A stretch of DNA of 64,000 nucleotides from Phaeodactylibacter xiamenensis. Lineage in GTDB: Bacteria > Bacteroidota > Bacteroidia > Chitinophagales > Saprospiraceae. The stretch covers positions 124,001-188,000 of the forward strand of contig NZ_JPOS01000029.1 in the NCBI RefSeq assembly GCF_000759025.1, written 5' to 3'. The translations under genes were made by a program, and so were the position numbers. The notes beneath the pieces were generated by a model. The model saw only the letters and a program-made list of their open reading frames with translations, was not told where the DNA came from and ran no database searches. This document shows, in pieces, positions 6,467-18,324 of this stretch. Every line of letters starts with the position of its first letter. The stretch's first letter is position 1.

Positions 6467-8869
6467 TTAGTATTTTACGGTAAAGCGGAGGGCCCGAAGC
6501 CCCTGTACGCCCTGTAGTTTTCCGATTTTGAGATCCTCAATTTCTTCGGTAATGTACCCTTCGGAAATGAGGTAGTCCGCATATTCGAGGTACTCCTGCT
6601 TATCTTTTTCCTGCAGATAAACAATCGCCACTTTGCCGGCCTGCGTCAGCCGCTCGTCTGTACCTTCGATCAGCGCTTTGTCAATGCGCTTCTTCAGTAT
6701 CTCGTAGCGGACATTGTAGGCTCCATCCACATCAAACTGCTTTTCGTCCATCCGGAAGCGGATCGACAGGGGGTTGGAGTAGGTAAAGATCAGTTGCGCA
6801 GTGGTGAGAGGTACGGGCAAGTCGGTTTGCAGATCCTCTACCAAACGGGTGACTTCGCACATGTCAATAAACTGCCAGAGCCGGAGATTACGCAGGTGCA
6901 TGCGCTTGAAGGTGCCGGTTTTAAGCAGGGACTGCCCGGCGTAGATATCGTACTCCACACCATCCGTCTTATAGCGCTCAAAGTAGTGGGGGACAATTTT
7001 TTGGGCTGCTTCCTGTTGGTCTTCCAGATAACGGGCAATGGTGGAATTGATCATGGATACGCTATCCTCATACTTTCTGCGTTCCTGGTACACGATGCCC
7101 AGGTCGGCATCAATGTAGTTGAAATAGTGGCGGACCTTGGCTTGCAGGGCCGGATACCGGCTCCTGATGTCCTCGAGCACCGGATGGATTTCGTCCTTCA
7201 GCCAGGAAACGATTCTGGACTCGTCGTTGGAGTTGAAATCCTCCAGTACGCCTTTGAGGTTGCGTTCGGCCGCAGCCCGGTATTGATTGAGCAAAGGGTA
7301 GCGGCCCATGCCAATTGCTACATCAAGGAGGTCCAGCAGCAGGTGCAGGTTTTCTGAAAGGTCGGCCTGTATGGCATGGTTCCGCCGGTCAGAGGAGCTT
7401 ACAATATCTGCCTGCGCATAGAGCGGGTGCACATCTCTGAAAGCAATAGGCGGAGCGGTGGCATTCTTGCCCTCAACCTCCCGTTTCTCCAGCAGATTGT
7501 AGGAGGTTTCAATGAATTTCCACTCCACACTCGGGTGGATGGCCGTGTATTGCTCCCGGATGATGGCCTCAATCTGATTGTCGATCTCATCCCGGCTGCG
7601 TTCCACCGCCATACTAAATAAACTGACCAGCTCCCGGAATTTAAGCTCTACAAAGCTGTGCAGTTCGTAGGGCTTGGGCGAGCCGATTTCGAGCAGGCCG
7701 ATGATACGCTCTTTTTTATTCAGCAAAGGCGCAACGATGATACTACGGATCCCCTTTTGGAGCAAGCCTTCTTCGATCGGGGTTTTTTGCTTTATTTTCT
7801 CCAGGTCTTCTACCAGCACTATCTCCCGGTATTTACAGGCTTTCTCATAGATGGAGCCTGCGTTGTCCTCCGCCAGTAAGTCTGCCTGCTCCTCGGCAAG
7901 AAAATCATATCGGATTTTATACTGATGGGCGACCTGATACTCTTTGGGGTAGTCAATCGCCGTAACGCCCATCTGCAAGCCAGGGATGTCAAAGAAGGTT
8001 CGGACAAGGCCTTCCAGCCGGCTGACCTTTTCTTCCTGCACCACAGCATTTCTTTCCAGCATGGAAAACTTAAGCCTGGACAAGGCCTCTTCCTCCGTGA
8101 TATCGATCAGCGTACCGATGGTGAAGCCTTGGAACTCGAAGTTTTCCGGGGGCAGGTACTTCATCCAAAGCTCTACATCGTACACATTGCCTAGCAGCTC
8201 GTTGATCTGTTCCTGGCTGAGCGGTTTTAGCGGCTTTAGCTTTTTTATCCTCATGTAGTCTGTGTCGAGGCGGGTTTTGTAATGCCGCTCCATGCCCGTC
8301 TCCGGGTTGGAAATAGAGATCGACAGGGGCGATCCGATTTTTAGATCGGTACCGTAGTAGGTATTCAGGATGAAGCTGCAGGCGCTGATCACCATAGAGC
8401 AGAAGGTGAAGCCTGGCTTGTGGTTGATGACATACTTGAAATTTTTAGCCCGGATGTGCTCCTCCAGGGCTGGCGTCATGTATATCGGTGCCATTTCGAA
8501 GGGCGCCGACACCTTGATCAGCTGATTTCGGCGCAGGGCAGGAGGGATGACCATCAGCATGAGCAAGTCGATAATATCCTTATGTTTTTCCAGCTGTCTG
8601 CGGTCTTCAATGGGCTGCCATAACTCCGGCGCATCCTTCAGGCGGTCCATGACGAACTGCCCTACCCCTGACTCTACCGGGTTGTCGCTTTCCGCCTTCT
8701 CTTTGATCATCTCCAGCAAAGGAGCCAGGCTGAGCTTGAACCGGAAAGGCATTTTCCCGATATCGAGTTGCTCCAGCACATTCCATTCTTCATCTACAAC
8801 GGCCTGCCGGGCGCGTGGCTGTGTCTTCGGGGGCTTCACAGGTAAGTCGATTTCTTCCATAGTGTGCAA
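6467..8869 (-). CDS. GAF-domain sensory protein, large cytoplasmic
   Basis: The 800-residue soluble protein has no signal peptide or membrane helix. A GAF domain occupies roughly residues 270-440: the segment IVLVEDLEKI, then GIRSIIVAPLLNKKERIIGL and LEIGSPKPYEL, shows the usual small-ligand-binding fold pattern. N- and C-terminal helical regions flank it (for example a heptad-like stretch around SRLEGLVRTFF). No kinase, GGDEF or HTH output domain is apparent, so it is likely a ligand-responsive scaffold or a regulator with an unrecognised output. Long GAF proteins of this layout recur in Bacteroidota. The 195-base gap and the shared strand do not tie it functionally to the barrel gene downstream. 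Confidence 0.7.
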   Translation of the reverse strand: MHTMEEIDLPVKPPKTQPRARQAVVDEEWNVLEQLDIGKMPFRFKLSLAPLLEMIKEKAESDNPVESGVGQFVMDRLKDAPELWQPIEDRRQLEKHKDIIDLLMLMVIPPALRRNQLIKVSAPFEMAPIYMTPALEEHIRAKNFKYVINHKPGFTFCSMVISACSFILNTYYGTDLKIGSPLSISISNPETGMERHYKTRLDTDYMRIKKLKPLKPLSQEQINELLGNVYDVELWMKYLPPENFEFQGFTIGTLIDITEEEALSRLKFSMLERNAVVQEEKVSRLEGLVRTFFDIPGLQMGVTAIDYPKEYQVAHQYKIRYDFLAEEQADLLAEDNAGSIYEKACKYREIVLVEDLEKIKQKTPIEEGLLQKGIRSIIVAPLLNKKERIIGLLEIGSPKPYELHSFVELKFRELVSLFSMAVERSRDEIDNQIEAIIREQYTAIHPSVEWKFIETSYNLLEKREVEGKNATAPPIAFRDVHPLYAQADIVSSSDRRNHAIQADLSENLHLLLDLLDVAIGMGRYPLLNQYRAAAERNLKGVLEDFNSNDESRIVSWLKDEIHPVLEDIRSRYPALQAKVRHYFNYIDADLGIVYQERRKYEDSVSMINSTIARYLEDQQEAAQKIVPHYFERYKTDGVEYDIYAGQSLLKTGTFKRMHLRNLRLWQFIDMCEVTRLVEDLQTDLPVPLTTAQLIFTYSNPLSIRFRMDEKQFDVDGAYNVRYEILKKRIDKALIEGTDERLTQAGKVAIVYLQEKDKQEYLEYADYLISEGYITEEIEDLKIGKLQGVQGLRALRFTVKY

Positions 8870-10827: not shown

Positions 10828-13719
10828 ATGCGGACACTCATATTTAAAGCATTGCCGGTCGCGCTCTGCCTGCTCTTTAGCGCAGCCCAACTACAGGCAC
10901 AACTGAGCATATCAGGCCGGGTTATTGATGCCAGCAACGGCGAACCCCTCGTCGGTGCAAGTGTAGCGGTAGAAAATACCTCCCTGGGCGAAAACACGGA
11001 CGCCGACGGTCGTTTTTCCATCAAAAATATCGAAAACGCGGATGCCAGGATTGTTGTCACCTACATTGGTTATGAGCCTCAAACCTTATCCCCCAATTTT
11101 GTCTCAGGCAAACCTGTCATCATTCGCCTCAAGCCTTCTTCGGTTGAGCTGGATGAAGTGGTGGTTACCGGAATCGTGGAGGGACAAATCCGGGCAATGG
11201 TTGATATGAAGCAGGCGGAAAACATCAAGAACATCGTTACGGCCGAGCAGATCGTGACGTTTCCAGATCTCAATGCTGCCGAAGTGATGCAACGCATACC
11301 AGGCATCACTTTGCAGAGGGATCAGGGCGAAGGCCGCTTTGTTCAACTCCGTGGCACCCCGCCTGAATTGACCAACTTCAATATCAACGGAGAGCAGGTA
11401 CCCTCTCCCGAAGGCAGCTACCGCTATGTGGGCATGGACATCATTCCTTCCGATCAGATCGAAGCGGTGGAAGTCACCAAAGTGATGACACCCGATATGG
11501 ACGCTGATGGGATCGGTGGTTCCGTCAATATAAAAACCAAAGGGCCACAGGGCGGTAAGCCTCAAATCCGTGCCACCCTGGCCAGCGGCTACAACAACCT
11601 GCGGGAAACGCCCAACTATAATATGCAGTTTTCCTATGGGCAGCGCTACGAAAAGTTGGGGTTCCAGATTACCGGTAGCTTTTTTGAAAACAACCAGGGC
11701 TCCGACAATATCGAGTATAAGTTTGCCAAAGGGCCATTCTTCAATGATGATGATCAGCAGGAAGGACAGGACAACTTCTTTGTGCACTACCGAGAGGCAC
11801 AGCTGCGCCATTATGACATCAAGCGGACCCGGATTAGTGTGGCTCCTACCCTCGATTACAAGTTTAGTGAAGACTCGAAGTTGTATTTGCAAACCATGTA
11901 CAATAGCTTCACGGATAATGAGACCCGTCGCAGGCTGATTTATGACCTGGAAGACCCCCTAAATGCTAATTATTTTCTGTTTGGGGGCATTGACCATGAT
12001 ATTCGGGACCGCATCAAGCAGCAACAGCTGAGTACCATCGCCCTGGGCGGGGAGCATAAAATTGGCCGGGTCACCATAGACTACCAGATGTTTTACGCCC
12101 GGGCCAGTGAGCGGGAGCCCAATCGCCTGGAAGCCCGCTTTGAGAGCCCCGGGCAGGCCATCACGATTGATTTCGATGTATCCGATCCGGACTACCCGCG
12201 TGCGACTTATCCCAACGAGACGAATGCCGCCAATGCAACCGACTACGAAAACTTCGAGCTGGATGAAATGCTGCTGGAAAATACAAATACCCGGGAAGAC
12301 CTGTATACCCCAAGGGTGAATGTCACCATTCCTTATGAATTCAACAACGGGCAAGAGGGCTATTTTAAGTTCGGAGGCAAGATACGTTCCCGGGTAAAAA
12401 CACAGGATATTCGCAGTCAAACCTTTGGAGCTTACCGGGAAGAATCGATTCTTTACCCCGGCACAGGTGATCCATTGAATTTGGTGGCAATAGCCGATGA
12501 CTTCTATGAGGACAATCTGCTCGATCAGGGCTATGTACTGCAAAATATGCCCTCGGCGGACAAGCTTCGGGACTTTTATGAGTTTTTCCCGCAATACTTC
12601 ATCTTCAGCCGCAATGAGACCCGGAAAAATTCCTACAATCAGGATTACGAATACGCTGAGGATATCTACGCGGCCTACGGTATGCTCCGCCATGATATTG
12701 GGCGGCTAATGATCCTGGGCGGCCTGCGTTTTGAGCGTACAGATGTGACCCGCAACCGTGGTTTTGGAGTCATTCTGAACGGTAACCGGTTTATCGGGGT
12801 GGATACCATTGACAACCGTCGGGTCCAGGAGTTTTGGCTGCCTCAAATTCAGTTGAAGTACGGGCTTACGCCAAATGTCAACCTTCGCGCGGCTCTCACT
12901 TATACCTACTCAAGGCCTAACTACGTAGACGTTATTCCTTCCCGCGAGGAAGACCGCAACGAGGTTAGCATTGGTAACCCTGACCTCAACTTCCCCCGCT
13001 CTACCAACGTCGACCTGATGATTGAGCGTTATTACCGCTCTAGTATATTCTCCGGTGGGTTATTCTATAAGCGCATTGATGATTTCGTCTTTTCCTACAA
13101 ACGTTTTGGCCGTGAAGGTGCGCCCGGCTCTGGTAACTTCCCGGTTTTTGAATTTACCAAGCCCCTCAACGGGCAGGATGCGGATGTGCTGGGAGCAGAG
13201 TTCCAGGCACAGTTCAAATTTGATTTCTTCAGTGGCTTTTTCAGCAATTTTGGACTGTTTACCAATTATACTTACACCTATTCCCGTGCTTACCTGCCCC
13301 GCCGGGTGCCTGCCAATTATGCAGAAGCCATTATTATTGATCCGCTGGAGGATGACCTGAGTGACTTCTTTGCGGAAGAAGACCGGGAAGAGATCGAGCT
13401 GCCCGGGCAAGCGGCGCACACGGCCAATGTCGCGTTGTTCTATGATTCCCCAAAATTCTTTGCTCGTCTGACAGCCAACTACCAGGATGATTTTCTCGTG
13501 GAAATCGGGCCGGACCCCGACCTCGACGAATACTATGACGAAGCCTTGCGCCTCGATTTAACCATGAACTACCAGATGAATGATAAGCTGACTTTCTTCG
13601 CAGATTGGATCAACATTACCAATGAGCCCCTTCGCTTCTACCTGGGCACCCCTGATGTTATCAAGCAGCAGGAGTTTTATTCCTGGTGGATGCGCGCGGG
13701 TCTTCGGATTAGTTTATAA
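10828..13719 (+). CDS. TonB-dependent outer-membrane receptor
   Basis: The 963-residue protein has a signal peptide to about residue 25 (SAAQLQAQ). A carboxypeptidase-regulatory-like beta-sandwich (ISGRVIDASNGEPLVGASVA) extends to about residue 110, and DEVVVTGI marks the TonB-box region. The plug (about 125-240, ending GGSVNIKTKGP) and a 22-strand barrel follow to the C-terminus. Such receptors import bound ligands using TonB-ExbBD energy. No SusD partner follows; instead a phytase gene starts 65 bases downstream. Phytase genes beside TonB receptors are known in several aquatic bacteria, so the ligand is plausibly phytate, an inositol phosphate or a linked metal complex. The ligand is inference, the family assignment is firm. 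Confidence 0.9.
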   Translation: MRTLIFKALPVALCLLFSAAQLQAQLSISGRVIDASNGEPLVGASVAVENTSLGENTDADGRFSIKNIENADARIVVTYIGYEPQTLSPNFVSGKPVIIRLKPSSVELDEVVVTGIVEGQIRAMVDMKQAENIKNIVTAEQIVTFPDLNAAEVMQRIPGITLQRDQGEGRFVQLRGTPPELTNFNINGEQVPSPEGSYRYVGMDIIPSDQIEAVEVTKVMTPDMDADGIGGSVNIKTKGPQGGKPQIRATLASGYNNLRETPNYNMQFSYGQRYEKLGFQITGSFFENNQGSDNIEYKFAKGPFFNDDDQQEGQDNFFVHYREAQLRHYDIKRTRISVAPTLDYKFSEDSKLYLQTMYNSFTDNETRRRLIYDLEDPLNANYFLFGGIDHDIRDRIKQQQLSTIALGGEHKIGRVTIDYQMFYARASEREPNRLEARFESPGQAITIDFDVSDPDYPRATYPNETNAANATDYENFELDEMLLENTNTREDLYTPRVNVTIPYEFNNGQEGYFKFGGKIRSRVKTQDIRSQTFGAYREESILYPGTGDPLNLVAIADDFYEDNLLDQGYVLQNMPSADKLRDFYEFFPQYFIFSRNETRKNSYNQDYEYAEDIYAAYGMLRHDIGRLMILGGLRFERTDVTRNRGFGVILNGNRFIGVDTIDNRRVQEFWLPQIQLKYGLTPNVNLRAALTYTYSRPNYVDVIPSREEDRNEVSIGNPDLNFPRSTNVDLMIERYYRSSIFSGGLFYKRIDDFVFSYKRFGREGAPGSGNFPVFEFTKPLNGQDADVLGAEFQAQFKFDFFSGFFSNFGLFTNYTYTYSRAYLPRRVPANYAEAIIIDPLEDDLSDFFAEEDREEIELPGQAAHTANVALFYDSPKFFARLTANYQDDFLVEIGPDPDLDEYYDEALRLDLTMNYQMNDKLTFFADWINITNEPLRFYLGTPDVIKQQEFYSWWMRAGLRISL

Positions 13720-13784
13720 ATAATCATTTGTGCTCTGGAAAGGGTCAAATGATGGGGACAGCCTCCCCGCTAAATAAGATGAAC

Positions 13785-14837
13785 ATGAAAAACCTACTCT
13801 ACCTATTCTTGCTTTTTTGGGTGACCGCTTGCCACGCTCCGACAGAGGAGGTACAAGACAAATCCCATGAAAAAATCGTGCCCACTCTGAAGACTGAGCC
13901 GGTACAATTTGACACGGACGACCCCGCAATCTGGTACAATTCCGACGACCCTGCCCAAAGCCTGGTGCTGGGTACAGACAAGGAAATCGGTGGCGGTTTG
14001 TATGTTTTTGATCTCAAAGGGCGTATTATTGACAGCCTGACCGTTCGAGGGCTGTCCTATCCAAATAATGTTGACGTGGAATACGATGTCCTTCTTAGCG
14101 ATTCTATGACCACAGATGTCGCAGTGACCGTTGAACGGCCTCTTGGACTGGTGCGGATTTTCAGCGTTCCGGAGCTGCAACCGTTGGATGGGGGTGGGAT
14201 ACCTGTCTTTGAAATGGAATCCGACTCTCTAATGCGCCTGCCAATGGGGGTGGCGTTGTACAAAAAGCCGGATACTGGCGAGGTTCACCTGATTGTCAGC
14301 CGTAAGCAAGGGCCTACGGATGGGAATTATCTGGCCCAGTATGCGATCCTGCCAGGCGATTCCAATCAGCTGAAGTTAGAGCTGCTGCGCCAGTTTGGGC
14401 AGTTCTCCGGTGGCGAAAGTGAAATTGAAGCTATTATGGTAGACGATGCCATGGGATATGTCTACTACTCAGACGAAATGAAGGGTATCCGAAAGTATTA
14501 TGCTGACCCTGCTATGGGAGAAGAAGAACTGGCTTTGTTCGGTACCGAAGACTTTAAGGATGATCGGGAGGGCATTGCCCTTTGGCCTACCTCAGATTCA
14601 ACAGGGTATATTGTGGTTTCCAATCAGCAGGACCTAAGTTTTAACGTTTATCCGCGGAACCCGGAACAACATGCCCATCAGCTGCTAACGAATTGGAAGC
14701 TTTCGACCGTAGAAACTGATGGATGTGAATTGCTGGCTAAACCACTGGGGCCGTATTTCCCAAAGGGGGTCTTCATTGCCATGTCTGAAGACACGACTTT
14801 TCATTATTACGATTTGAGAAAACTGGCTATTGAATAA
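13785..14837 (+). CDS. Beta-propeller phytase lipoprotein (3-phytase type)
   Basis: The 350-residue lipoprotein starts at ATG 13785 (MKNLLYLFLLFWVTACHAP) with a lipobox Cys after VTA; ATG 13779 is an equally possible start. The body has the beta-propeller phytase signature: DDPAIWYNSDDPAQSLVLGT, GGLYVFDLKG, YPNNVDVEY, ESEIEAIMVDDAMGYVYYSDE and FGTEDFKDDREGIA. These acidic residues bind calcium and substrate in this family, which releases phosphate from phytate. The protein would sit on the periplasmic or surface membrane face, next to the TonB receptor encoded immediately upstream. Together they form a small phosphate-scavenging unit. No Pho-box-like site was identified. Confidence 0.88.
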   Translation: MKNLLYLFLLFWVTACHAPTEEVQDKSHEKIVPTLKTEPVQFDTDDPAIWYNSDDPAQSLVLGTDKEIGGGLYVFDLKGRIIDSLTVRGLSYPNNVDVEYDVLLSDSMTTDVAVTVERPLGLVRIFSVPELQPLDGGGIPVFEMESDSLMRLPMGVALYKKPDTGEVHLIVSRKQGPTDGNYLAQYAILPGDSNQLKLELLRQFGQFSGGESEIEAIMVDDAMGYVYYSDEMKGIRKYYADPAMGEEELALFGTEDFKDDREGIALWPTSDSTGYIVVSNQQDLSFNVYPRNPEQHAHQLLTNWKLSTVETDGCELLAKPLGPYFPKGVFIAMSEDTTFHYYDLRKLAIE

Positions 14838-14883: not shown

Positions 14884-15798
14884 ATGAAAAAGCGCTTTCT
14901 GTTCAGTCTGAGCCTTCTGTCGGCGATCTGCTTAACGACCTGTACGCGAAAGGTCTCCCTGGAGTGGTCGGCAGAAGAATTTGAAACGTTTATTCTCCCT
15001 CCCGGTGGCGTAGAGATCGCTCCGGGCTTATTCTATGACAGACAGGAAATAACCGTTCGGGACTGGTGGGAGTACCTGCATTGGATACGCGATGTATATG
15101 GTACTAAGTCTGCTGAATTTAAAGCAGCGTTACCCCTGACTTCCGTATGGGGAGTGCCCTATCGATGTTTAGAGCGTTTGGAGAAGGAGTATTTTACCTC
15201 AGGCCCATATGCTAATTTCCCAATAGTTGGGGTGAGCCGTGCCCAGGCTGTAGCTTACGCAAAATGGCGGGCGGACCGAATACTGGAACTGATTTTACGC
15301 CACTTTGAGGCAATTCCTTTTCATCCGGATCCGGGGCCTCGCAATCATTTTACGATAGAGCGCTATTTATCCGGAAAATACCGTCGGTGTGCGCCCCACC
15401 CCGCGCTCGCCCGCTACATTCACTACCGGCTCCCTTCTGAAGAAGACTGGAAAAAAGCCAAAGCTTACAACGAAGAAGTCCTGAGGCGTTATCAGAAAGA
15501 ATGCCAGCTGGATTGTGAAGAGCCCGTTAACGCCGGGCAAAATCCCTGTACACAGGAGAGAGTTATAAGGCTTCCTGTGGCGAGCGCCGGCTCGGGGATT
15601 TTGCCGGATAGCCTCAAGTATATCCGGCACCTAAGCGGCAATGTAGCAGAATGGTCAGCCACTCCGGGCGTTACCCTGGGAGGAAGTTGGTTTCATAAGC
15701 CTGCTGACGTTGCTCAGTATGTTTTGTTCCGGGCTGATAAACCTAATGCCTGGACCGGTTTCCGGTTAGTGGCGGAGTACCGTGAAGTGGGATACTGA
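14884..15798 (+). CDS. FGE/sulfatase-modifying-factor-like lipoprotein (GldJ/GldK-like fold)
   Basis: The 304-residue protein has a lipoprotein signal (SAICLTTC, Cys near residue 20). The rest follows the formylglycine-generating-enzyme fold: GGVEIAPGLFYDRQEITVRDW, FPIVGVSRAQAVAYAKW, YRLPSEEDWKKA, HLSGNVAEWSA, GGSWFHKPADV and TGFRLVAEY. In Bacteroidota this fold includes the gliding/T9SS lipoproteins GldJ and GldK as well as true FGEs. I do not see an obvious paired-Cys active site, so a structural or binding role is more likely than catalysis. It lies 168 bases upstream of the small precursor and MNIO genes on the same strand, so a link to that locus is possible but unproven. Confidence 0.75.
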   Translation: MKKRFLFSLSLLSAICLTTCTRKVSLEWSAEEFETFILPPGGVEIAPGLFYDRQEITVRDWWEYLHWIRDVYGTKSAEFKAALPLTSVWGVPYRCLERLEKEYFTSGPYANFPIVGVSRAQAVAYAKWRADRILELILRHFEAIPFHPDPGPRNHFTIERYLSGKYRRCAPHPALARYIHYRLPSEEDWKKAKAYNEEVLRRYQKECQLDCEEPVNAGQNPCTQERVIRLPVASAGSGILPDSLKYIRHLSGNVAEWSATPGVTLGGSWFHKPADVAQYVLFRADKPNAWTGFRLVAEYREVGY

Positions 15799-15966: not shown

Positions 15967-16161
15967 ATGAAAGTATCCAAATCATTGCTTCAAGCCATCG
16001 CGCTGGGGGTTGCCCTGGGCAGCAGCGCCACATCTTGTATGCTGCTTGACAATTCCGATGAGGTCAAGCCCGACACCGAAAAGGCAGCCGAAGATGACCG
16101 CTGCCCAACGGATGATGGCGACAAGCCCTGGTACAATTGCCCGGCTTGCGGAATGGGCTAA
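15967..16161 (+). CDS. Small Cys-containing precursor-like lipoprotein (candidate RiPP substrate)
   Basis: The 64-residue product starts at ATG 15967. Residues 1-25 form a signal peptide with a lipobox-like SSATSC. An acidic linker follows (SDEVKPDTEKAAEDD), then a short Cys-rich tail: RCPTDDGDKPWYNCPACGMG. Two nucleotides separate its stop from the start of a DUF692/MNIO enzyme gene. Substrates of MNIO enzymes are short peptides with Cys cores, and some (bufferins) carry a Sec signal as here. The tail recalls precursors of the chryseobasin (ChrA) group described from Bacteroidota, as I remember them. I therefore read this as the modified peptide, with CPAC and the upstream Cys as likely sites. 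The chemistry and the role (metal binding?) are inferred. Confidence 0.75.
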   Translation: MKVSKSLLQAIALGVALGSSATSCMLLDNSDEVKPDTEKAAEDDRCPTDDGDKPWYNCPACGMG

Positions 16162-16163
16162 GT

Positions 16164-17315
16164 ATGGAATATTCCGGTTTACAGCGCCCACGCGCTACCC
16201 TCGCTTGTAATTTGGACACCAACCTGCTGCGGGCCGCTCACCCTTTGCTCACAGCAGGGCAGGTGGAGGCATTGGAGTGGTCCTTCGATGCCCTTTTTTC
16301 GTTTCCGGAAATACCGGACTGGTTTACCGCCCTCATCCAGGCCTACAGCGAGGAGGGGCGGCTTGTGGGCCATGGGGTCTTTTTCTCACTCTTTTCCGGC
16401 CGGTGGAGTGCGGAGCAGCAGCAATGGCTCGACCGCCTCAAGGCACTTTCTGAAGTGTACCGGTTTGATCATGTGACGGAGCATTTTGGCTTCATGACTG
16501 GTGCGGATTTTCACAAGGGGGCACCCCTGGGTATACCTTTCACACCTCAAACCCTGCAGCTTGGCCGGGACCGTCTCCAACGCATCAGCGCAGCAGCTGG
16601 CTGTCCGGTGGGATTGGAAAACCTCGCTTTCGCCTATACACTCGATGAAGTGAAGCGCCACGGCGACTTTCTGGAGCAATTACTGGAACCAATCAATGGA
16701 TTTATCATTTTGGACCTCCATAATCTGTACTGCCAGCTCCACAACTTCCGTCAATCGGCGGAGGAACTGCTCCGGCTGATGCCCCTGCATCGGGTGCGGG
16801 AAATACACCTCTCCGGTGGTAGTTGGGAACCGGCAGCAGGGCAGCGCAATCGGCAAATCCGGCGGGATACCCACGATGGAACGGTGCCTCAGGCGGTATT
16901 TGACTTGTTAGAAAAAGCCCTCCCGAAGTGCCCGAATTTGAAGTATGTCGTTTTGGAACAGCTCGGAGGGGCACTGGAAACACCGGAACAGCAGCGGGCT
17001 TTTCAAGCTGACTTTCGCACCATGCACGGCATACTGAAACGCCAAAACCATTCAGGGAAAACGTCCGCCCCGGCCAACGATTTCCAACCACCAGCTTTCA
17101 CCCCGTCGGCTACGCCCCGGTCTGATGAAGCCCTGCACCAACAGCAGCAGGCCTTATCAGAAATACTGGAAAATGCAGCAAGCCTGAGGGATGCCCGCAC
17201 ACAATTGTCCGCTTCGCCTCTGGCAGAGACGGCCTGGAACGTCGAAAACTGGGAAGACGATATGCTGGAAACCGCTAGGCGGATTGCTCAGAAATGGAAG
17301 GGCGGTTGGGGCTAA
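16164..17315 (+). CDS. DUF692-family multinuclear iron oxidase (MNIO) with C-terminal extension
   Basis: The 383-residue enzyme (ATG 16164, two bases after the precursor stop) has the DUF692/MNIO TIM-barrel landmarks in order: HGVFFSLFS, VTEHFGFM, VGLENLAF, ILDLHNLYCQ, REIHLSGGSW, RRDTHDGTVPQAVFDLL and VVLEQLGGALE. Conserved His/Glu/Asp residues in these motifs bind two or three irons in MbnB, TglH and ChrH, which oxidise Cys (or other) residues of a peptide. Homologs usually work with a separate partner protein (MbnC, TglI, ChrI types). None is encoded here. Instead residues from about 300 form a Pro-rich linker plus a helical region (HQQQQALSEILENAASLRDA ... WEDDMLETARRIAQKWKG), possibly a fused partner-like segment. 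The end overlaps the convergent SDR gene by 41 bases. Confidence 0.87.
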   Translation: MEYSGLQRPRATLACNLDTNLLRAAHPLLTAGQVEALEWSFDALFSFPEIPDWFTALIQAYSEEGRLVGHGVFFSLFSGRWSAEQQQWLDRLKALSEVYRFDHVTEHFGFMTGADFHKGAPLGIPFTPQTLQLGRDRLQRISAAAGCPVGLENLAFAYTLDEVKRHGDFLEQLLEPINGFIILDLHNLYCQLHNFRQSAEELLRLMPLHRVREIHLSGGSWEPAAGQRNRQIRRDTHDGTVPQAVFDLLEKALPKCPNLKYVVLEQLGGALETPEQQRAFQADFRTMHGILKRQNHSGKTSAPANDFQPPAFTPSATPRSDEALHQQQQALSEILENAASLRDARTQLSASPLAETAWNVENWEDDMLETARRIAQKWKGGWG

Positions 17316-18324
17316 GGCGCACCGCTTGCTGGCCTTTTGACTGCCGGTAAGCTTCGGCCGTCTCCCGGATGGTCTGAGCGATGGGCGTGTACGTAAAATC
17401 GAAGTGCTGCAGCGATTTCTGATTGTCGTAGTAGAACACCCAGCTCGAATTCCGGGCAGTTTCCCGGGTAAGGAAGGGGCGCTTGCCGGTCAGTTTAGCT
17501 TGCAGCCAGGCCAGGCGCCAGGATAAACCGCGCAGGATTTTTCCGACCTTGTACTTAGGCGGATTTACGCTCAGTGCTTCTGCCACTTCCGTTAGCAATT
17601 GCTTATAAGGGTAGTGCTCCGCATTGAGGATGAAGCGCTCGTTTTTGATATCGCTTTCCATCAGCCGGACCATATACCAGGCTACATCCCGTACGTCCAC
17701 CAGGCCAGTCGTACCTACAGGATAAAAAGGGAAGCCTTCGTCGACCATAGAGAAGAAATGTGCCGGGCCGCTTTCCCAAAAACCACTTCCGAGCACAATG
17801 GAAGGATTGACTACAGCAATATCCAGCCCTTCGGCAAAGCCGCGCCACACCTCCATCTCGCCCTGATATTTGCTGACCGCATACCGGGTATTGAAGGGGC
17901 TGCGCTCCCACTTGGCGGTTTCGGTGATGGTAATGCCCTGCTTGGTCCGGCCCAGGGCCGCAATTGAACTTACGTACAGCAATTTCCTTATCCCCAGCTT
18001 AAGCGCTGTATTCACCACGTTGGCCGTACCGGTGATATTGACGGTGCGCAGGTGCCGGGCATCAGCCGGATCAAAGGAGACGACAGCCGCACAGTGAAAA
18101 ATATAGTCACAGCCCTCCATCGCTCGTTCCAGCGCGAAAATATCCAGGATATCGCCGTCAACCCATTCTACTTTCTCCGCCAGGTCATCCACCAAGTCCA
18201 TTGGGCTGCCCGGCCGGCGGAAGGCCCGGATACGGTCAAAGCCATCCACCAGGAGCTGTTGCAGCAGATGAGAACCGATAAATCCGGTGGCACCGGTGAT
18301 GAGTATGGAGCTGTTTTTATCCAT
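17275..18324 (-). CDS. NAD(P)-dependent epimerase/reductase of the extended SDR family
   Basis: The 349-residue protein has the Rossmann motif GATGFIGSHLLQQL at residue 10, the VSSIAALG serine and YAVSKYQGEMEV (Tyr/Lys pair) of extended short-chain dehydrogenases. The layout is like dihydroflavonol reductase or 3-beta-HSD-type NAD-dependent epimerase/dehydratases. The substrate cannot be read from sequence. It follows anmK directly on the minus strand (adjacent at 18324/18325), so it is likely co-transcribed. Its last 41 bases overlap the convergent MNIO gene. Confidence 0.85.
   Translation of the reverse strand: MDKNSSILITGATGFIGSHLLQQLLVDGFDRIRAFRRPGSPMDLVDDLAEKVEWVDGDILDIFALERAMEGCDYIFHCAAVVSFDPADARHLRTVNITGTANVVNTALKLGIRKLLYVSSIAALGRTKQGITITETAKWERSPFNTRYAVSKYQGEMEVWRGFAEGLDIAVVNPSIVLGSGFWESGPAHFFSMVDEGFPFYPVGTTGLVDVRDVAWYMVRLMESDIKNERFILNAEHYPYKQLLTEVAEALSVNPPKYKVGKILRGLSWRLAWLQAKLTGKRPFLTRETARNSSWVFYYDNQKSLQHFDFTYTPIAQTIRETAEAYRQSKGQQAVRLSPNRPSISEQSA

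Follow-up and report, generated by a model that had tools for sequence, protein, structure and literature searches.

A 64,000-nucleotide stretch of the Phaeodactylibacter xiamenensis genome (the window) carries a small precursor gene followed by a MNIO gene, which we assign, with a probability of roughly 0.92, as a minimal gene pair for a DAG-RiPP of the DybA/DybH type. From this two-gene unit, the cell probably makes a short peptide that is anchored by lipid and in which an iron enzyme has converted the tail into a ring. Chryseobasin-like 'DAG-RiPPs' were described in a 2025 preprint (PMC12636315) for DybA/DybH of Dyadobacter crusticola DSM 16708, in which DybH converts CPACGMG to a macrocycle and a hydantoin with a mass change of -4 Da, as established by mass spectrometry and NMR, and DybA is lipidated after modification to carry a triacylated N-terminal Cys. 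According to the same source, the Bacteroidota branch combines precursors that carry a lipobox Cys and terminate in CPxCGxG with a MNIO that has a C-terminal helical domain, and has no partner protein. The gene pair itself, its conservation and co-occurrence, the sequence motifs and iron ligands of its products, and matches to Lgt and LspA in the genome can all be observed, as described below.

The precursor gene was delimited by open reading frame (ORF) analysis and translation, with an ATG at 15967, a stop at 16159-16161, and the tail RCPTDDGDKPWYNCPACGMG. A gap of 2 bases separates this stop from the ATG of the MNIO gene at 16164, and the MNIO stop is located at 17313-17315 (Table 1). The peptide consists, in order, of MKVSKSLLQAIALGVALGSSATSC, a 33-residue linker, and CPACGMG. 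The original prediction had been a 64-aa Cys-containing lipoprotein with a 383-aa DUF692 protein 2 bases downstream, and the ORF reading confirmed both the coordinates and the tail; the motifs EHFGF, ENLAF, DLHNLY, HLSGG, and DTHDG, which had been named for the enzyme, were all found in it, and the FGE-fold lipoprotein that had been placed upstream of the pair was recovered with PF03781.

Table 1. Coordinates of the gene pair, its predicted elements, and the flanking genes in the window.
Feature	Coordinates	Strand	Basis or remark
TonB-dependent receptor	10828-13719		TIGR01782, 469.4 bits (cut-off 310)
Phytase-domain gene	13728-14837		PF02333, 112.5 bits
FGE-fold lipoprotein	14884-15798		PF03781, 44.6 bits (cut-off 23.3)
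DybA/ChrA-like RiPP precursor, 64 aa	15967-16161	+	Lipoprotein signal, linker, and CPACGMG core; NF050125 (ChrA_rel_RiPP)
Signal peptide, residues 1-23 (MKVSK, then a hydrophobic run; SATS precedes the Cys)	15967-16035	+	Predicted; lipobox rule satisfied
Lipobox Cys24, predicted diacylglyceryl anchor	16036-16038	+	Aligned with DybA Cys23
Extra Cys46 between anchor and core (RCPTDDG)	16102-16104	+	Present also in nearest relative (L013)
CPACGMG core, residues 58-64, C-terminus	16138-16158	+	Tail-motif searches
ChrH/DybH-subfamily MNIO (DUF692), 383 aa	16164-17315	+	PF05114, NF050165, DybH comparison, TglH ligands
MNIO C-terminal extension, residues ~300-383	17061-17312	+	Alignment A1 and DybH comparison; located where ChrH-family enzymes are reported to have a helical bundle
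SDR gene	17275-18324	-	Convergent; overlaps MNIO 3' end by 41 bases

The precursor was compared with the NCBIfam model NF050125 ('chryseobasin-related MNIO class RiPP peptide'), which it matched with 65.5 bits against a curated cut-off of 40. Across 395 genomes of the phylum, this model matched seven at E <= 0.001, just three of them above the cut-off. Three of the four matches below the cut-off came from genomes without this MNIO (G441, G516, and G268) and mainly covered the signal part of longer frames, and a genome of this sample that has both the enzyme and the tail motif (G395) was missed at the same threshold. NF050125 is a narrow model and makes a poor census, and the case for co-occurrence therefore rests on the tail pattern. 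The lipoprotein signal was evaluated with two rules. The strict lipobox rule, a PROSITE-type pattern, was passed by the window peptide; 36 of the 48 nearest precursors passed and 12 failed, compared with 72 passes among 9600 shuffled sequences. A looser rule accepted any Cys among residues 18-30 that follows A, S, T, G, or P; of the nearest precursors scored (L061 was unscored), the failures were those of L092 and L093, which are taken to be of the Chryseobacterium type, and a second, farther copy at L060 failed too. The assembly contains two matches each to the Lgt and LspA families. Between the peptide genes of the window and of L013, 11 codon differences are synonymous and 6 non-synonymous, with none falling within the seven tail codons.

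The enzyme was identified as a MNIO with PF05114 (MbnB_TglH_ChrH), which it matched with 106.2 bits (cut-off 25) and to which it is the single match in the 7.87-Mb assembly at E <= 0.001. Its best NCBIfam model is NF050165 (MNIO_ChrH), for which the score of 367.9 bits lies under the equivalog cut-off of 600; this model was matched by all 32 enzymes of alignment A1, which comprises 32 of the 49 enzymes compared, at E <= 1e-20. The iron ligands of TglH (H71, H107, E151, D184, N187, H216, D229, H231, and E258; PMC10880893) have equivalents at 9/9 positions in the window enzyme (H70, H107, E152, D184, N187, H215, D235, H237, and E265, counted by eye in the alignment), and all nine positions are invariant in alignment A1. 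Identity is 94% to the MNIO of L013, 58% over 373 aligned positions to DybH of D. crusticola DSM 16708 (locus L016), and 39% to the enzyme of L092. Residues from about 300 to 383 align with the DybH extension in a comparison of sequences only. The L016 precursor is 50 aa long, which fits the numbering used in PMC12636315 (Met26/Asp27, A46). Four relatives (G586, G139, G608, and G658) have one stop inside the MNIO match, and their frames were taken to the first stop, giving 372, 370, 391, and 370 aa, respectively.

Having proposed that the MNIO acts on the lipoprotein before its export and anchoring, the original prediction called for a count of how often the two genes occur together. In a sample of 396 genomes from the order, this MNIO was found in 38 (E <= 1e-30), and the DNA pattern for CP[AG]CGMG followed by a stop gave 35 matches distributed over 32 genomes, against 0 for the reversed pattern used as a control. 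The strict tail motif was thus present in 32 of the 38 MNIO genomes versus 0 of the 358 others, where the figure of 358 presumes that the MNIO and motif searches covered one and the same set of 396 genomes (the two sets agree in selection and size, and all 38 MNIO genomes appear in the motif table). The remaining six MNIO genomes have variant tails, such as CPACGLG. When the window peptide was used as a protein query, 7 of 198 genomes of the order were matched, and the MNIO was present in all seven. The sample also contained another genome of this genus (G640), in which both the MNIO and the strict tail motif were missing; the pair is therefore patchy within the genus.

For a closer comparison, 49 loci were assembled from 37 relatives of the order sample, 3 of the phylum sample, 8 named loci, and the window. 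The original prediction would have been refuted by a small gene absent beside DUF692 homologues or by cysteines that vary among relatives; instead, a peptide ending in CxxCGxG is encoded upstream of the MNIO and on the same strand in 48 of the 49 loci, and the tail is exactly CPACGMG in 39 of these 48 precursors. Measured from the peptide stop to where the enzyme match begins, which need not coincide with the start codon, the gap never exceeds 648 bases and is <=79 bases for 43 of these 48 precursors. Together with the genome counts, this adjacency agrees with the lipoprotein as the likely substrate. That the MNIO instead acts on another protein is extremely improbable: no point in its favor was found, it is at odds with the co-occurrence of peptide and MNIO across loci and genomes, and a DNA pattern search for CPxCGxG plus a TRR stop, which also lets TGG through, found no further candidate substrate in the assembly besides the window gene. 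This own-assembly count alone proves nothing, because the control likewise gave one match. Among 40 MNIO-bearing relatives, the same pattern gave 57 matches against 2 for the control, of which 44 are at MNIO loci and 13 elsewhere, 3 of the latter ending in TGG and having no stop. Matches away from the MNIO were noted in G586 (C23), G692 (C3), G706 (C14), G630 (C60 and C86), and G674 (C1 and C2), as well as at G735:C1:985934, G669:C1:5435859, and G705:C1:7567370; these could be chance occurrences or further substrates acted on in trans.

Several loci depart from the common arrangement. L094 is the sole locus of the 49 without a CxxCGxG peptide; its upstream frame ends in GACGMG, with one Cys in the tail. 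The frames of this locus (123-371, 401-1279, and 1272-1529) include a 292-aa MNIO that lacks the C-terminal extension and, after it, an 85-aa frame with a weak match to the L072 extension (E 7e-4, from one comparison). L094 resembles the split MelH/MelHc arrangement of Cyanobacteria reported in PMC12636315, and its contig may be mis-binned. Tandem precursors with the same kind of tail are encoded upstream of the MNIO in L014, L055, L060, L062, L065, and L087. In L084, a divergent lipoprotein-like frame ending in CITCGRG precedes the usual precursor and is roughly 1 kb upstream of the MNIO (6645-6972, on the MNIO strand), possibly representing a second substrate type.

The window pair shares with DybA/DybH the two-gene unit, a lipobox Cys at position 23/24, the CPACGMG end, and a ChrH-like MNIO with a C-terminal extension and no partner gene, in addition to the enzyme identity given above; it differs from DybA in its longer linker and in the extra Cys46. 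With chryseobasin (ChrA/ChrH of Chryseobacterium, PMC10214503) it shares the core motif and the MNIO subfamily. However, the signal of ChrA is of the signal peptidase I type and lacks a lipobox Cys, the chryseobasin product is S-methylated, and the Chryseobacterium cluster contains chrI, chrE, and chrP (PMC10214503, PMC12636315), kinds of genes for which there were no Pfam matches among the six neighboring genes scanned around the window pair. Assignment to chryseobasin in the narrow sense, with the enzyme as a ChrH equivalog, was rejected on the sub-cut-off NF050165 score, the lipobox Cys, and the other Pfam matches of the flanking genes. Lipidated bufferins and oxazolins, such as NedA, are likewise MNIO-modified peptides with lipoprotein signals, but have other core motifs and chemistry as well as a partner protein (PMC12636315, PMC12452194). 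A bufferin, oxazolin, or aminopyruvatide type was dismissed, as the NCBIfam scores of the window enzyme are far below the cut-offs (87.8 versus 310 for BufB and 74.2 versus 360 for HvfB). The original prediction had left the choice between a variant of the chryseobasin type and a new class; the former stands, and the latter is rejected on the NF050125 match and the description of DybA/DybH. Its expectation that a lipidated MNIO product would be unusual did not hold, and the novelty it saw is removed, because PMC12636315 had already described the same kind of product.

The chemistry and lipidation proposed for the window pair are carried over from the characterized DybA/DybH ortholog. The 64-aa precursor would be made in the cytoplasm, where the MNIO would by itself recognize the C-terminal CPACGMG and, with Fe and O2, take four electrons, such that Cys58 would become linked to the former Cys61 in a macrocycle and a hydantoin would be formed (-4 Da). 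S-methylation of the core is probably absent, and an unmethylated -4 Da product is expected because the enzyme is close to DybH. If the enzyme additionally S-methylated its substrate as ChrH does, for +10 Da overall, the product would be a lipidated chryseobasin core. The common motif and subfamily, the 39% identity to the L092 enzyme, and an Archangium pair reported to give a mixture (PMC12636315) speak for such an activity, yet the greater similarity of the enzyme to DybH and the unmethylated products of the Dyadobacter, Chitinophaga, and Hymenobacter pairs (PMC12636315) make it improbable. After formation of the predicted unmethylated product, the modified peptide would be exported, Lgt would add diacylglycerol to Cys24, and LspA would cut before this residue, leaving the peptide membrane-anchored, possibly in the outer membrane, and carrying the ring at its free end.

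The genomic context was then examined by clustering the frames of at least 90 aa encoded within 6 to ~9 kb on each side of the pair in the 49 loci, neighborhoods that are often cut by contig ends. Besides the MNIO, every gene family is confined to 4 or fewer of the 49 neighborhoods, and precursor and MNIO therefore most likely make up the whole functional unit, as in PMC12636315. The FGE-fold lipoprotein, which shows partial similarity to the gliding lipoproteins GldJ/GldK far below their cut-offs, clusters with L013 only, and thus accompanies the pair at 2 of 49 loci; it was rejected as part of the cluster and is probably unrelated to the pair. The phytase and TonB receptor genes, perhaps a phosphate-scavenging pair, were also rejected, as they are absent from the 6 kb upstream in L013 despite the 94% identity of the MNIOs. 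The neighboring genes gave no clue to the biological role of the peptide.

A feature that varies among the precursors is the presence of further Cys residues between the anchor and the tail. One to four such residues were found in 21 of 23 genomes of the window's own family (f1, perhaps Saprospiraceae; window included), in all three genomes of family f12, and in both L013 and L014, versus none in the 11 genomes of family f20, most of which cluster with the named Chitinophagaceae on the enzyme tree, none in the six other named loci (L015-L020), and none in L092 and L093. These counts leave out L061, whose precursor frame is truncated by the end of the contig, and a second, far frame in L073, which has no ATG and ends in CPACGRG. 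The pattern C-x2-3-C-x2-4-H was matched by 10 precursors in 9 loci, nine of the ten conforming by eye to C-x3-C-x2-[DEN]-H. On the enzyme tree, from which L094 was omitted for want of a CxxCGxG peptide and in which L061 was entered as without an extra Cys, the label required 7 changes compared with a mean of 16.1 after shuffling, with 20 of the 45 inner branches open. A single clean gain is not supported, because the tree is poorly resolved and seven changes are needed.

The lineage distribution, the recurring Cys/His pattern, and the clustering on the tree raise the tentative possibility that Cys46 and the C-x3-C-x2-[DEN]-H of relatives are functional in a lineage sub-variant, as a metal or disulfide site with the ring or as the site of a second modification. 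Against this reading, the number and position of the residues vary, two f1 genomes have none, the window has the single extra Cys46 without the His pattern (although it is kept in L013), and DybH modified just the CPACGMG motif of DybA, a peptide that itself has no such Cys (PMC12636315). It is rather unlikely that the f1 and f12 peptides form a membrane-tethered thiol- or metal-binding sub-class in which either the ring thiol and linker Cys act jointly or a further modification is introduced by the MNIO. No description of a sub-class with extra Cys was found in the abstract, introduction, results, and discussion of the DAG-RiPP preprint PMC12636315; 'Saprospir' does not appear in its main text, and no paper in the collection searched combines 'MNIO' and 'Saprospir'. 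The window pair, read as a DybA/DybH-type DAG-RiPP unit, adds an ortholog and a clean co-occurrence result (32/38 versus 0/358), and the lineage-linked pattern of extra Cys residues leads to a concrete functional hypothesis, that these peptides may carry out thiol or metal chemistry at the membrane.
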